Shown here: piece by piece, positions 3,906 through 45,424 of the stretch | Layout of the letters: every line of letters begins with the position of its first letter | Position numbering within the stretch: position 1 is the first letter of the stretch | The notes under the pieces: generated by a model | Told to the model about the DNA's origin: nothing | Database searches by the model: none | What the model saw: the letters and a program-made list of their open reading frames with translations, nothing else | NCBI GenBank assembly: GCA_018303845.1 | Contig: JAGVXH010000002.1 | Location: 91,532-154,384, forward strand | DNA length: 62,853 bases | DNA from: Candidatus Pacearchaeota archaeon | GTDB lineage: Archaea > Nanobdellota > Nanobdellia > Pacearchaeales > GW2011-AR1 | Direction: 5' to 3' | Program-made: the position numbers and the translations under genes

Positions 3906-3989
3906 ATGAAACTCGAAAAACAAGATGATGATGACTTCGAAGACGAAGAAGAATTCGATGACGAAGAAGAACTTGAAGACGAAGATTAG
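3906..3989 (+). CDS. 27-residue hyperacidic micro-ORF
   Basis: ATG at 3906 opens 27 codons ending in TAG. Apart from the first six residues nearly everything is Asp or Glu, broken only by Phe, Phe and Leu at regular distances (DDDDFEDEEEF then DDEEEL). AGAGGG stands just upstream, a TATA box lies at 3859, and a second acidic micro-ORF follows 12 nt later. I do not recognise a family. Acidic tails of this sort mimic nucleic acid or bind basic proteins, but that is inference. Short length is the main reason for doubt. Confidence 0.55.
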   Translation: MKLEKQDDDDFEDEEEFDDEEELEDED

Positions 3990-4001
3990 CCCATAAATAA
4001 A

Positions 4002-4085
4002 ATGCCAAAAAGAGAGAGCCTAAACGACGAATACGACGAAGAAAGTCTCGGAGAAAACGCACTAGATCTCGAAGAAGACCTTTAA
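4002..4085 (+). CDS. second acidic 27-residue micro-ORF
   Basis: ATG at 4002 opens 27 codons: MPKRESLNDEYDEESLGENA, then LDLEEDL. It has the same length as the preceding ORF and is also acidic, though with a basic N-terminus and several leucines. It ends directly at a long T-tract (4086 onward), so the pair makes a self-contained transcription unit: promoter, two micro-ORFs, terminator. Function unknown. Confidence 0.5.
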   Translation: MPKRESLNDEYDEESLGENALDLEEDL

Positions 4086-4113
4086 TTTTTTTTATTTTTT
4101 TATTTTTTTTAAA
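4086..4113 (+). terminator. poly-T terminator after the micro-ORFs
   Basis: The plus strand runs T9-A-T7-A-T8 or similar immediately after the second stop codon. Long T-tracts are the intrinsic terminators of archaea. The opposing gene at 4119-4676 ends just beyond, so the units converge here. Confidence 0.7.
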
Positions 4114-4118
4114 ATTCT

Positions 4119-4676
4119 TTACCCTAATAATCGAGCTTCACGAAACATTCCCAAAGCCATATAAGAAGTTCTCAATTTCTCAGTAACATCCGCCTTTTCA
4201 GATTCATCCAACTTCATCTTAATCAACTTCTCATAAAATTTAACCGCACTTGCCCTTTTGCCTTTCTTATCAAAATCATTTGCAAAACTAAAAAAAACAT
4301 TCTTCCGAGCCAAAGAAATCTTCTTCTTATCTATCTCCCCAGCATCCCTAGCAACACGATTAAACATCTCGTCTGCATCATCCAATCTCCCAACACGACA
4401 AAACATCTCGGCCGCCATTACACAAGAATCCATTCTATCCTTAAACATCGGCTCAACTCCCGCCAAATTACAAAGCGCCCGAGCCGCCCTCTCAAACATC
4501 ATCCGCTCCTCATAAAGCCGAGCAAGCTCACTCCAAATAAATCGTTTAATCTCAAACCCCCCACCGACAACTTTCAACGCACTTTCCAAATAAACAATCT
4601 TATTCAACGCCGTAGCCATAGAACTCAGTTTAACCTTCATATCCTCAATATTTCGCTCTCTAACTTGAACTGCCAT
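4119..4676 (-). CDS. unrecognised alpha-helical repeat protein
   Basis: The 185-residue product is almost wholly helical, with TPR-like pairs such as WSELARLYEERMMFERAARA (about 49-68), MAAEMFCRVGRLDDADEMFN (about 87-106) and a closing LRTSYMALGMFREARLLG. TPR-type scaffolds bind partner proteins; none is indicated here. A TTAAAAAG box about 21 nt upstream supports the ATG at 4676. The adjacent gene 4727-5272 is also helical and has its own promoter. Confidence 0.7.
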   Translation of the reverse strand: MAVQVRERNIEDMKVKLSSMATALNKIVYLESALKVVGGGFEIKRFIWSELARLYEERMMFERAARALCNLAGVEPMFKDRMDSCVMAAEMFCRVGRLDDADEMFNRVARDAGEIDKKKISLARKNVFFSFANDFDKKGKRASAVKFYEKLIKMKLDESEKADVTEKLRTSYMALGMFREARLLG

Positions 4677-26956: not shown

Positions 26957-26978
26957 CTTATAAAAATTATTATACTCT
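26957..26978 (-). promoter_or_regulatory. extended-consensus promoter, gene 26627-26935
   Basis: Minus strand TATAATAATTTTTATAAGG preceded by GAG. It sits inside the last codons of nrdG. Confidence 0.75.
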
Positions 26979-27767
26979 AACACAGATCTCTCCAAACAAT
27001 TCACTCAACAATTTTTTCAACCTAATCAATTCCCCTTCCAAAACCTCATCCTTCTCCATAAAAGAAATATCAATCATACTCTCTCCATGTTTAAATCCCT
27101 GCAAAAAAATCTTTGACGGTTTCTCCCCACAAACACCTCCCATCCATTCTCCCATCTTAATCAACTTCTCGCCATCATGTAAACCAGGAACAACCGTAGT
27201 CCGAAACTCCGAACAACCTTGTCTGTGCTCGTCTGTGCTCGTCCGTGGATTATTTTCCTTCCCATTAAATTCGCGCCCATTCACGCAAATTCGCGGACTA
27301 ATGTTCCCTCTCCCAAAATCATCCACAATCTTAATAGACCTCTCGATATTCCCTAAATCAATCTCCATATTCACAATCTTATAATAATCCTCTCGCGCAC
27401 CCTTAACATCCATCGCGATATAATCAACAAGTCCCTCACTCACCAACTCCAAAAGCCTCTCAGGAAAACTCCCATTCGTATCAATCTTAATCTTAAACCC
27501 CATCTCCTTAATTCTCCTCACAAAATCAAAATCCAAACTCATTAAAGGCTCACCACCAGAAATACAAACCGCATCCAACTTTCCAATCCTCTTTTTCAAA
27601 AAACTCAAAACCTCTTCAGAAGAAAACTCTATTTTACTTTCACTAACAACCAAGCCCGAATTATAACAAAACCCACACCTAAAATTACATCCCCATAAAA
27701 AAATCACACAACATATCTCCCCAGGATAATCAATCGTCGAAACTTTCTGTAATCCAGCAATCTTCAT
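26970..27767 (-). CDS. nrdG: radical SAM activase of anaerobic ribonucleotide reductase (NrdG-like)
   Basis: NrdG-type enzymes use a 4Fe-4S cluster and S-adenosylmethionine to make the glycyl radical of NrdD. The 265-residue protein starts MKIAGLQKVSTIDYPGEICC and has the cluster motif WGCNFRCGFCYN and the SAM-binding ISGGEP. About residues 156-185 (SPRICVNGREF...NPRTSTDEHRQG) look like a translated intergenic repeat inserted before SEFRTTVVPGL. The start overlaps the stop of an upstream ORF (ATGA), with GAGGTGAT ahead as ribosome binding site. No TATA box lies at the usual distance, because an insertion separates the gene from its promoter. Confidence 0.92.
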   Translation of the reverse strand: MKIAGLQKVSTIDYPGEICCVIFLWGCNFRCGFCYNSGLVVSESKIEFSSEEVLSFLKKRIGKLDAVCISGGEPLMSLDFDFVRRIKEMGFKIKIDTNGSFPERLLELVSEGLVDYIAMDVKGAREDYYKIVNMEIDLGNIERSIKIVDDFGRGNISPRICVNGREFNGKENNPRTSTDEHRQGCSEFRTTVVPGLHDGEKLIKMGEWMGGVCGEKPSKIFLQGFKHGESMIDISFMEKDEVLEGELIRLKKLLSELFGEICVRV

Positions 27768-27913
27768 ACATAATCACCTCTACTTCCAAGTACCCAAGAG
27801 AAATCATACATGCAAAAGACATCTTGATTTTGCATAAAACCCAAGCCACCAAACCACCAAACCACCAAACCACCAAAAAAATTTTCAATTTTTTCCAATC
27901 CAGCAATCTTCAT
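27764..27913 (-). CDS. 49-residue upstream ORF coupled to nrdG
   Basis: TTTATAAC at 27935-27942 lies exactly 21 nt before the ATG at 27913. The ORF begins MKIAGLEKIENFFGG: its first six codons copy the nrdG start (MKIAGL), because they lie in the 18-bp duplication. It then translates the inserted DNA (LVVWWFGGLGFMQNQDVF...) and ends TATGTATGA, where TGA overlaps the nrdG ATG. GAGGTGAT precedes that junction. It is probably an accidental product of the insertion that now carries ribosomes to nrdG. Confidence 0.65.
   Translation of the reverse strand: MKIAGLEKIENFFGGLVVWWFGGLGFMQNQDVFCMYDFSWVLGSRGDYV
27769..27896. mobile_element. insertion between 18-bp direct repeats upstream of nrdG
   Basis: AATCCAGCAATCTTCATA occurs at 27751-27768 and again at 27897-27914. 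The 128 bp between them include ATGCAAAA/TTTTGCAT arms (27829-27854), four tandem CCACCAAA units and an AAAATTTTCAATTTT segment. This is the composition of the elements at 48005 and 60013. I treat it as an inserted non-autonomous element with target duplication; no transposase is present. Confidence 0.65.
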
Positions 27914-27934
27914 AACAAAAAAAACCAGTCAACC

Positions 27935-27956
27935 TTTATAACAATTATTACACCAA
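27935..27956 (-). promoter_or_regulatory. original nrdG promoter, now 5' of the insertion
   Basis: Minus strand GTGTAATAATTGTTATAAAG followed 21 nt later by the duplicated start codon. It belongs to the extended-consensus group. Confidence 0.7.
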
Positions 27957-27975
27957 ACAACCAAGCATCCACAAA

Positions 27976-28107
27976 TCTAATCTCTAATTTCTAATCTCTA
28001 ATCTCTAATCTCTAATCTCTAATCTCTAATCTCTAATCTCTAATCTCTAATTTCTAATTTCTAATTTCTAATTTCTAATTTCTAATTTCTAATTTCTAAT
28101 TTCTAAT
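27976..28107. repeat. heptanucleotide tandem repeat, about 19 units
   Basis: A 7-bp unit is repeated about 19 times in two blocks: mainly TCTAATC at first, then only TCTAATT. It starts immediately at the stop codon of the isomerase gene; the TAG belongs to the first unit on the minus strand. Slippage repeats of this length are rarely stable. Confidence 0.95.
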
Positions 28108-28555
28108 CCTCTTCTCCACAACCTTCTCCAGCACAAAACTCCTCTTCTCCAAAATCAACCCGATCAAAATCATCATCAAATCTCTCGACATCGTCCTCTC
28201 CCAAATACTCTCCCACCTGAACTTCAATAACTTCCAAAGGAATCCTCCCCATATTTTCCAACCTATGAATAACCCCAACAGAAACATACGTCGATTGCCC
28301 CGACCTCAAAACAATCTCATCATCATCCAGCACAACTCTCGCAATTCCACCAACAACAACCCAATGCTCCGACCTATGCAAATGCTTCTGCAAAGAAATC
28401 CTTTTACCAACATCCAAAGTCAACCTCTTAACATGATAACCCTTACCACTCTCAATAGAAACAAACCGCCCCCAAAACCTTTCAACGCAATTCCGCTTAA
28501 GCTCTTTCGAGAACAAAGCAAATTCACCCTTTTCTCCCACCACTCTCTCTTCCAT
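28103..28555 (-). CDS. mannose-6-phosphate isomerase, cupin (type II) domain
   Basis: Interconverts mannose-6-phosphate and fructose-6-phosphate, supplying sugar for glycans. The 150-residue protein is the free-standing C-terminal cupin of type II PMIs: RFWGRFVSIESGKGYHVKRL, SLQKHLHRSEHWVVVGGIAR (metal-binding His-x-His region), VGVIHRLENMGRIPLEVIEV and GEYLGEDDVERFDDDFDR. The start at 28555 is fixed by CTTATAAT, 21 nt upstream. The acidic tail (FGEEEFCAGEGCGEED) is extra. It may serve glycosylation of the sequon-rich surface proteins at 50-63 kb. Confidence 0.92.
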   Translation of the reverse strand: MEERVVGEKGEFALFSKELKRNCVERFWGRFVSIESGKGYHVKRLTLDVGKRISLQKHLHRSEHWVVVGGIARVVLDDDEIVLRSGQSTYVSVGVIHRLENMGRIPLEVIEVQVGEYLGEDDVERFDDDFDRVDFGEEEFCAGEGCGEED

Positions 28556-28678: not shown

Positions 28679-28801
28679 TCAACACTTGCTTTTGAACATG
28701 GATCTATCCCCGAACTCAGCCAACTTCCCGTCATTCCATCGAGCAGTTGGTCGTAAATACCCAACAACACGACTCCAGACTTCACACTTAGTCCTAGCCA
28801 T
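28679..28801 (-). CDS. separate glycyl-radical domain of anaerobic ribonucleotide reductase
   Basis: This 40-residue ORF reads MARTKCEVWSRVVGYLRPTA followed by RWNDGKLAEFGDRSMFKSKC. It is the C-terminal glycyl-radical segment of class III NrdD, with the radical glycine in RVVGY. It overlaps the end of nrdD by 8 nt in another frame and has its own ribosome binding site, AGAGGTGAT, 4 nt before the ATG. In other organisms this segment is part of NrdD. A small spare-part glycyl-radical protein (YfiD/GrcA) is known for pyruvate formate-lyase, so a separate peptide is biochemically plausible. A frameshift error in the assembly must be excluded. Confidence 0.85.
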   Translation of the reverse strand: MARTKCEVWSRVVGYLRPTARWNDGKLAEFGDRSMFKSKC

Positions 28802-31088
28802 CAATATCACCTCTTGATTTTATTTTAGATTCTTCAACAACTTCAAAACTTTCAACATCATCTTCACTCTCTCTCCTGGTCTCAAGAACCTCGCCTCGCC
28901 CCTTCCCTCTATCATCAAACGCACTAACAATCTTTCTACTGCTCGTCTCCCGCCTAACAACATCTTTCAACTCCATAACCTTAGCCTTAGCATCCGAAGA
29001 AATCTTCCCAGCTAAAGCAATCTCCTCCTCACTAACTTCCAACTTATCTTCCTCGACCAAAACATCTTCTGCCTCCCGCTTCCCCTCAGCAACTTCCAAA
29101 TCGCACTTCGGACAATACTCATGTTCACCCGACAAATACCCATGAATCGGACAAATCGAAAATGTCGGAGAAATAGTAAAATAAGGCAAGTGATAACCAA
29201 ACGCAATTTTCTTCACCATTCTTTTAACAGCGTCAACAGTCATCCTCTCGCCAACAAAAGTATGGAACACAGTCCCACCAGTATACTTACACTGCAACTC
29301 ATCCTGCAAATCAAGCGCCTCGAAAACATCGTCAGTAAAATCAACTGGCAACTGGCTCGAATTAGTATAATAAGGCTTAGCTCCTAAATTCTGCACAGCC
29401 TCTTCATTCGCAACAATAATCCGCCCAAATCTCTTCTTGTCCATCCGGGCAAAACGATATGTCGTCCCTTCTCCTGGCGTCGCCTCCAAATTATAAATGC
29501 TTCCCGTCTCTTCTTGATAGCCGCCAAGCTTATCCCTCATAAAATCCAAAACCCTCAAGGCAAAGACCCGCCCCTTCTCCGTCGTAATATCTTCACCAGG
29601 CATAAAATTCTTCACCGCCTCATTCATCCCAAGCAAACCAATAGTCCCAAAATGATTCTTCCAATACTGCCCGAATCTATCATAAACCGCCCTTAAATAA
29701 AACTTAGAATAAGGATAAAGCCCCATCTCAGTAAACTTCTCAATCGATTTACGCTTAATCTCCAAACTCTCCTTAGACAATTCCATCAGACTCTCAAGCC
29801 GCGCAAAAAAATCATCCTCGCCCGTCGACACATAACCAAGTCGCGCCATATTAATCGTCACAACTCCAATCGAACCAGTCAAAGGATTCGCACCAAAAAG
29901 CCCACCGCCCCTCTTCTTTAATTCAGTATTGTCAATTCGCAACCTACAACACATAGACCGAGAATCCTCTGGCTTCATATCACTATTAACAAAATTAGAA
30001 AAATAGGGAATCCCATATTTCGCCGTCATCTCCCAAATCAAATCATACTCAGGCTTCTCAAAATCAAAATCCTTCGTAATATTATAAGTCGGAATCGGGA
30101 AAGTAAAAACCTGTCCACTCGCGTCCCCTTCAAGCATACACTCCGCAAAAGCCCGATTAATCATATCCATCTCCTTCTGAAAATCCCCATACTTATCCAT
30201 CTTCAACTCACCACCAATCACAACATACTCATTCGCCATATAACTCGGAACCTCCAAATCCATTGTTATATTTGTAAACGGTGTTTGAAACCCAACCCGT
30301 GTCGGCACCGCCATATTAAAAACAAACTCCTGCATCGACTGCTTCACCTGCTTATAATCAAGTCCATCATAACGAATAAACGGAGCAAGCAAAGTATCAA
30401 AATTACTAAACGCCTGCGCCCCCGCCGATTCACCCTGCAAAGTATAAAAGAAATTAACCATCTGCCCGAGTGCCGTCCTCAAATGTTTAGCAGGCTTCGA
30501 CTCAACCTTCCCCTTAACTCCCTTAAACCCAACCATCAACAAATCCTTCAAATCCCATCCAACACAATAAGCTCCAAGCGTCCCCAAATCATGAACATGC
30601 AAATCCCCAGACTCATGAACCTTCCGAACAGCCTCGGGATAAATCCGCCTCATCCAATAATTCGAAACAATTTTCGTAGCTATATAATTATTCAAACCTT
30701 GCAGAGAATAACCCATATTAGAATTCTCCTTAACCATCCAATCATTCAGTCCAATATAATCTTCGACAGCCTCAATCGTATCAAACAAACCTTTAACATC
30801 CCGAAGGTCTTCCCTGGATTTCCTATACAAAATAAAAGCCTTACCAACCTTCGCATGCCCCTCTTCAATTAAAACCTTTTCAATTAAATCCTGAACGTCT
30901 TCAACGTCGGCAATCCCATGCTCTCCATGAATCCTATCCAACTTCTCAACAACCTTATTCGCAATAACCTTAACCCTTTCCCTATCCTTCCCGCCGACAG
31001 CCCGAACCGCCTTCCAAATCGCGTCCTCAATCTTATCAGCCTGGAAAAACACAACACTTCCATCTCTCTTCCTGATCTTTTTTACCAT
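28794..31088 (-). CDS. nrdD: anaerobic ribonucleoside-triphosphate reductase, catalytic part
   Basis: Class III reductase makes deoxynucleotides without oxygen. The 764-residue protein has an ATP-cone regulatory domain (about 1-90: VKKIRKRDGSVVFFQADKIE), then the catalytic barrel with SMCCRLRIDNTEL (active-site Cys region), GSIGVVTINMARLGY, GLLGMNEAVKNF and a late zinc site SICPIHGYLSG...YCPKCD (about 655-677). After this come about 90 hydrophilic residues (VEEDKLEVSEEEIALAGKIS and beyond) in place of the glycyl-radical end, which is encoded separately at 28679-28801. The ATG overlaps the nrdR stop (TAATG). Confidence 0.95.
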   Translation of the reverse strand: MVKKIRKRDGSVVFFQADKIEDAIWKAVRAVGGKDRERVKVIANKVVEKLDRIHGEHGIADVEDVQDLIEKVLIEEGHAKVGKAFILYRKSREDLRDVKGLFDTIEAVEDYIGLNDWMVKENSNMGYSLQGLNNYIATKIVSNYWMRRIYPEAVRKVHESGDLHVHDLGTLGAYCVGWDLKDLLMVGFKGVKGKVESKPAKHLRTALGQMVNFFYTLQGESAGAQAFSNFDTLLAPFIRYDGLDYKQVKQSMQEFVFNMAVPTRVGFQTPFTNITMDLEVPSYMANEYVVIGGELKMDKYGDFQKEMDMINRAFAECMLEGDASGQVFTFPIPTYNITKDFDFEKPEYDLIWEMTAKYGIPYFSNFVNSDMKPEDSRSMCCRLRIDNTELKKRGGGLFGANPLTGSIGVVTINMARLGYVSTGEDDFFARLESLMELSKESLEIKRKSIEKFTEMGLYPYSKFYLRAVYDRFGQYWKNHFGTIGLLGMNEAVKNFMPGEDITTEKGRVFALRVLDFMRDKLGGYQEETGSIYNLEATPGEGTTYRFARMDKKRFGRIIVANEEAVQNLGAKPYYTNSSQLPVDFTDDVFEALDLQDELQCKYTGGTVFHTFVGERMTVDAVKRMVKKIAFGYHLPYFTISPTFSICPIHGYLSGEHEYCPKCDLEVAEGKREAEDVLVEEDKLEVSEEEIALAGKISSDAKAKVMELKDVVRRETSSRKIVSAFDDRGKGRGEVLETRRESEDDVESFEVVEESKIKSRGDIDG

Positions 31089-45081: not shown

Positions 45082-45151
45082 GCAGGTATAGCCAAGCAGT
45101 AAGGCAAGCGGCTGCAACCCGCTGATCTCAGGTGCAATTCCTGATACCTGC
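45082..45151 (+). tRNA. tRNA-Cys (GCA)
   Basis: A 70-nt cloverleaf: acceptor GCAGGTA/TACCTGC, anticodon stem AGCGG/CCGCT with loop CTGCAAC giving GCA, T-arm TCAGGTGCAATTCCTGA. The T-loop GTGCAAT is slightly unusual. Followed by TTTTTCTAAT and then by a broken second copy. Confidence 0.94.
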
Positions 45152-45171
45152 TTTTTCTAATTTAATTTTAT

Positions 45172-45302
45172 GCAGATATAGCCAAGCAGTAAGGCCGAAC
45201 GATTCGCTTTGAGTGAAAATAAAAATAACTAAATTTTCACGAGATGCAAATTGTGAGCTAGGCTGCAACCCGCTGATCTCAGGTGCAATTCCTGATACCT
45301 GC
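45172..45302 (+). pseudogene. tRNA-Cys copy interrupted by about 65 bp
   Basis: GCAGATATAGCCAAGCAGTA copies the 5' end (one substitution breaks acceptor pair 5-68), and GGCTGCAACCCGCTGATCTC through TACCTGC copies the anticodon loop to the 3' end, including the flanking TTTTTCTAAT. Between them lie about 65 bp with palindromes CGAA-CGA-TTCG and GTGAAAAT/ATTTTCAC. The 5' side of the anticodon stem is lost, so it is probably not functional unless the insert is an unusual intron. Confidence 0.7.
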
Positions 45303-45424
45303 TTTTTCTAATAATTTCCAATATAAATCGCCCCTTTCTCGTCGACAATCAAACCAAAATCTTTATAAAAGGAAAAACAGCCTCCTTCTAGTCAAAACAA
45401 ATCAAGAAGTGAAGACATTTTATA

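Follow-up and report, generated by a model that had tools for sequence, protein, structure and literature searches.

In this study, we analysed a window of 62,853 nucleotides from a Candidatus Pacearchaeota archaeon (contig JAGVXH010000002.1), in which nrdG, the gene for the class III ribonucleotide reductase activase, lies on the minus strand at 26970-27767 (TIGR02495, NrdG2). Upstream of nrdG is a cupin gene of the mannose-6-phosphate isomerase type (PF01050; 28103-28558, minus strand), and the gap of about 340 bp between the two includes a 19-copy array of a 7-bp unit, (ATTAGAA/ATTAGAG)19, which tandem repeat finding placed at 27976-28108 (minus strand), ahead of the nrdG promoter on the cupin side. 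The reductase itself is split. The main nrdD ORF (28794-31088, minus strand) covers residues 1-528 of the NRDD family, and the glycyl-radical tail, MARTKCEVWSRVVGYLRPTARWNDGKLAEFGDRSMFKSKC, is encoded by a separate ORF of 40 residues (28679-28801, minus strand; Pfam NRDD 531-562), which has its own Shine-Dalgarno (SD) motif and overlaps the end of the main ORF. The tail is separate in all nine genomes of the genus that have nrdG, and it was found in 37 of 180 genomes of the family, mostly as a short ORF and in a minority fused. A literature search found no paper describing this split. In one congener (L016, G006), nrdD is apparently interrupted by an intein-like sequence, with ...CLVFVHN standing before TVFHTF.

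The beginning of nrdG is present twice. We found two exact copies of AATCCAGCAATCTTCATA, at 27751-27768 and 27897-27914, which are 146 bp apart, enclose 128 bp and have no further exact counterpart in the 1.09-Mb genome. The inner copy (minus strand) is the present start of the gene, as NrdG homologues align from its ATG. The outer copy (TATGAAGATTGCTGGATT, minus strand) holds five nrdG codons and two bases of the sixth, and would be the older one, judging from promoter geometry and from congeners in which parallel loci are empty. The intervening 128 bp (27769-27896, minus strand) are missing from the nrdG loci of all eight congeners examined, and we refer to them as the insert. The 18-bp repeat at nrdG is of a kind that is rare outside tandem arrays. 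Exact non-tandem direct repeats of at least 14 nt within 300 bp are few in the whole window, and two places where they occur, near 38.5 and 45.2 kb, correspond to repeat elements or duplicated tRNAs.

Many genes of the window have a TTTATA/TTATAA box that starts 28-29 nt from the ATG, which leaves no room for a leader. A position weight matrix trained on 13 other genes of the window gave a score of 14.2 to GTGTAATAATTGTTATAAAGGT (27932-27953, minus strand; TTATAA at 27936-27941), located at -40 and hence in the exact leaderless register relative to the outer ATG. Of about 125,700 positions, no more than 17 score 14.2 or higher. Given this score and register, with TATA/BRE elements spaced as in the leaderless genes of this genome, the outer ATG has the features of a typical leaderless start. 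Such a promoter stands before the outer copy only, and within the insert the best score is -0.8, nothing promoter-like. From the outer ATG, an ORF of 49 codons (27764-27913, minus strand) continues across the insert and closes with an ATGA that it shares with the start of nrdG (overlap at 27764-27767, with the nrdG ATG at 27767), an overlap with a chance of about 0.04; its product has no match in Pfam or NCBIfam. Five nucleotides ahead of the nrdG ATG lies the SD motif GAGGTGAT (27773-27780, minus strand), an 8-nt match to the anti-SD in the 3' end of the genome's own 16S rRNA, GGATCACCTCC, whose gene fits the archaeal model. In composition-matched random sequence, the probability of an 8-nt match at this position is about 5e-4. 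An RNA structure masking the nrdG start was considered and rejected, as the region folds no better than its shuffles (z of only -1.4 for the whole region), and an Rfam search of the nrdG region gave no match. Altogether, the repeated sequence at both ends of a 128-bp insert, the 49-codon ORF with its terminal ATGA and the SD motif just ahead are as the first-pass annotation had described them. The same holds for its promoter at the outer copy, to which it had assigned six nrdG codons instead of five and two bases.

The insert carries a hairpin and a (GGTTTGGN)n module: the A/T hairpin AAAAAATTGAAAATTTTTTT at its left edge (27875-27894, minus strand), which forms in the computed fold, followed by the G-rich (GGTTTGGT)n repeats detected by TRF (27841-27874, minus strand). 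This module belongs to a lineage-specific dispersed family, whose copies often sit at a hairpin close to where a gene ends. The pattern GGTTTGGKGGTTTGGKGG has 45 matches in the genome under study, all 45 on the minus strand of their contigs, but is absent from the 15 congeneric genomes searched. Other copies likewise begin with a hairpin, the arms of which differ between loci, and both the hairpin sequence and the number of repeats vary from copy to copy. The lock on one strand parallels a strong GC skew, which is -0.42 in the window and about -0.2 to -0.5 on most of the stretches taken from several contigs; all the GGTTTGG modules are on the G-rich strand. At the same locus, the skew is about 0.5 in congeners G004 and G008. 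In one coding region (L095, G000:C2:187793), a GGTTTGGT module apparently lies in frame and encodes GGLVVWWFGGLV. We also considered that the whole insert is a dispersed element; this was rejected, as only the hairpin and G-rich part recurs, and for the 3' portion of about 75 bp the genome offers no good match. Similarly, an apparent homology past the 18 bp, between the outer copy and codons 6-9 (GLEKI and GLQKV), was discarded, as it reflects the AAAAATTGAAAATT start of the module that is seen at other loci. We also rejected the idea that every module copy is bordered by a target-site duplication of fixed length: at most of the other copies no exact flanking repeats of at least 10 nt were found, and local alignment of their left and right flanks was not significant.

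Comparison with the congeners bears on the history of the promoter. A leaderless promoter precedes nrdG in none of the eight congeners examined (scores of -17 to -25). In the closest one, G004, the cupin gene ends on the nrdG start with a 4-nt ATGA overlap, its orthologue terminating in ...GEGCGEE* across the nrdG ATG. Judged from these loci, the older state of nrdG in the genus is operon-internal. Because the congeners are not leaderless, any leaderless stage would have existed in this lineage only, before the insertion; if real, it would be recent and lineage-specific. The first-pass annotation had described a leaderless gene converted to coupled translation. This claim is partly supported: the insertion and the duplication of the start are borne out, and an ancestral leaderless state finds no support in the eight congeners or in the ATGA overlap already present in G004. 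In the comparison with sister genomes that it had proposed, the congeners lack the insert, and an empty site with the outer promoter was found in no sister genome examined. Besides the 128 bp, nrdG contains a second lineage-specific insertion of 34 in-frame codons (27210-27311, minus strand), where matches to congener NrdG proteins skip residues ~153-186. This stretch is absent from all congeners, has a single weak partial match elsewhere in the genome and holds GTCTGTGCTC-type tandem repeats, and the reading frame stays open.

nrdG is not the only gene with a duplicated start. A scan for such duplications over about 0.8 of the 1.09 Mb, in which the stop of the outer ORF was left free, placed these loci among its top matches; we count four cases beyond nrdG, which is a lower bound. 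The first is nifS, initially noticed among the module copies and then recovered by the scan. Its outer start, MENIYLDNAAT, is followed by a module and then by MRGLYLDNAATT; about 24 nt are duplicated and have diverged, the outer ORF of 40 codons ends in ATGA on the new start, and the new start has no strong SD. In G003, G010 and G012, the upstream regulator runs straight into nifS without interruption, and the TAATG junction of G003 and G010 is the one retained by the outer nifS copy of the genome under study. In a NYN-domain gene (PF01936), about 30 nt are duplicated with 97% identity and the stop of the outer ORF lies inside the new gene, 11 nt from its start. Since G004 and G008 keep an uninterrupted start preceded by the leader that the outer copy has here, comparison of these sequences settles that the outer copy of this locus is the old one. 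Upstream of the NYN gene (L179-L187), most congeners have a conserved leader with the hairpin CCCCGGTATGACGCAAGGAATGCCGGG; an Rfam search of three of these loci gave no match. A gene for a secreted protein of 1,743 amino acids has 86 nt duplicated (94%) around an insert that contains a hairpin; here the outer ORF stops 8 nt past the probable new start, the placement of which is uncertain. Finally, in a family 4 glycosyltransferase gene (PF00953), the duplicated stretch is about 117 nt long, takes in the promoter and surrounds a different insert, not of the GGTTTGG type; there is a promoter at both starts (8.9 and 8.3), and the outer ORF stops early, after 27 codons. The duplications (18, ~24, ~30, 86 and ~117 nt) have no characteristic fixed length. 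A search for other 18-bp duplications around the same insert had been suggested; the other duplications are longer than 18 bp, and most other module copies lack exact flanking repeats. A tRNA-Cys locus of the window (45082-45312, plus strand) follows the same logic, with an intact copy at 45082-45152 beside a copy split by about 66 nt. At another locus (L160, G-strand 3951-4201), partial extra copies of 41 nt adjoin a tRNA-His gene.

The position at which the outer ORFs stop is relevant to how these genes may be translated. At each of the four loci without a copied promoter, the outer ORF stays open across the insert and its stop falls at the new start, at +1 in nrdG and nifS, +11 in the NYN gene and +8 nt in the secreted protein; the promoter-copied glycosyltransferase locus does not follow this pattern. 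In composition-matched random inserts of similar length, stops at these positions have chances of 0.036 (nrdG), 0.13 (nifS), 0.39 (NYN) and 0.35 (secreted protein), with a joint value of about 6e-4 for the four loci, a post hoc figure that we take as support and not as proof because the test was devised after the cases had been seen. In Haloferax and E. coli, coupling requires overlaps or very short distances between genes (PMC10666635), and SD motifs commonly serve reinitiation (PMC6728339); the stop positions agree with both. At nrdG, an upstream stop overlapping a downstream start is present together with a strong SD, as in known cases of termination-reinitiation (PMC6728339, PMC10666635). 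Unlike in those cases, the upstream ORF is no gene and consists of an old start and an inserted repeat. We infer that translation of nrdG is probably coupled to the 49-codon ORF. The reinitiation put forward in the first-pass annotation is supported to this extent by the ATGA overlap, by the strong SD and by the overlap at four of four comparable loci.

That nrdG underwent an insertion with duplication of its start is strongly supported by the parallel loci, and we assign a probability of roughly 70% to the fuller reading, in which the outer copy is the older one and the old promoter drives an ORF that leads to nrdG. The opposite polarity, with the SD-led inner start as the original and the outer 18 bp as a stray copy placed beside a promoter by template switching, has in its favour that an 8-nt SD at good spacing would rarely arise at the end of random DNA, and that nrdG of the congeners is operon-internal and not leaderless. 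A stray copy, however, would need to land by chance at the exact leaderless distance from a top-scoring promoter, and at nifS and the NYN gene it is clearly the outer copy that is older; we therefore regard this reading as improbable. An assembly artefact at repeats would be conceivable in a metagenome-assembled draft of about 80% completeness and in a repeat-rich region. Yet three contigs show this architecture, each time with other sequences and another duplication length, and the duplicated copies have diverged, which leaves very little room for such an explanation.

A closer contender accepts the insertion and the duplication and leaves the 49-codon ORF without a role: nrdG would be translated by SD-dependent initiation on a transcript that starts at the outer or the cupin promoter, and the ATGA would be coincidental. 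The SD of nrdG is strong, the sequence before the ATGA gives a stop there in one of the three frames regardless, and the module contains few stop codons. Against this, the overlap is found at all four loci without a copied promoter and is missing where the promoter was copied, and nifS shows it without a strong SD. We consider a purely coincidental ATGA unlikely, if less so than a reversed polarity. Several observations count against the preferred reading of insertion with an older outer copy. Random insertion would not be expected to bring a strong SD to the end of the insert, and most module copies have no flanking duplication. In addition, the sister genomes examined offer no empty nrdG site with this promoter, the arrangement in G004 differs, the insert of the glycosyltransferase gene is of another type, and the stop statistic is a post hoc one on four loci.

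According to the preferred reading, a short lineage-specific hairpin with its G-rich repeats would have been inserted a few codons inside nrdG, and the target just 5' of the insertion would have been copied to the far side, restoring an intact start and gene beyond the insert. A working gene would be left only where the duplication includes the start codon. The old promoter and the old start would stay upstream and drive a leaderless ORF of 49 codons, and this ORF ends on the new start, so that nrdG would most likely be reached by termination-reinitiation or by SD-assisted initiation on a two-cistron mRNA. In this sense, our results suggest a selective filter, by which genes would survive an insertion only with a duplicated start and, where the promoter was not copied, the upstream ORF would remain open as far as the new start.

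As for the mechanism of insertion, small dispersed repeats in many copies, with an insert flanked by direct repeats (18 bp at nrdG), recall MITEs or small insertion sequences with target-site duplications. Unlike in those elements, the duplications range from 18 to about 117 nt and are mostly lacking, and we recognised no clear transposon-type terminal inverted repeats. End-joining and template switching during replication leave short duplications with filler DNA. By their pattern, the loci described here resemble such products in the variable length of the duplication and in filler that is local or repetitive; they differ in that a G-rich repeat, specific to the lineage and locked to one strand, often serves as the filler. 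Because the duplication lengths vary, template switching or fill-in repair is favoured over a transposase with a fixed stagger, and either may have produced the insertion. A further proposal is more tentative and, in our view, rather less than evenly probable: a strand-locked process may be active in this lineage, inserting hairpins and G-rich repeats along with copies, of variable length, of the adjacent target, through which genes hit at their starts would repeatedly become a second cistron.

Prokaryotic genomes commonly contain overlapping gene pairs and small upstream ORFs, but the origins of these are rarely visible. Several of the events described here are fresh enough for the insert to be seen together with both the old and the regenerated start, and two of them have empty sites in congeners. 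If this reading is true, the process would make new small ORFs and coupled translation in a single step, and a directly initiated gene would become the second cistron of a mini-operon headed by a small ORF that begins at the old start.
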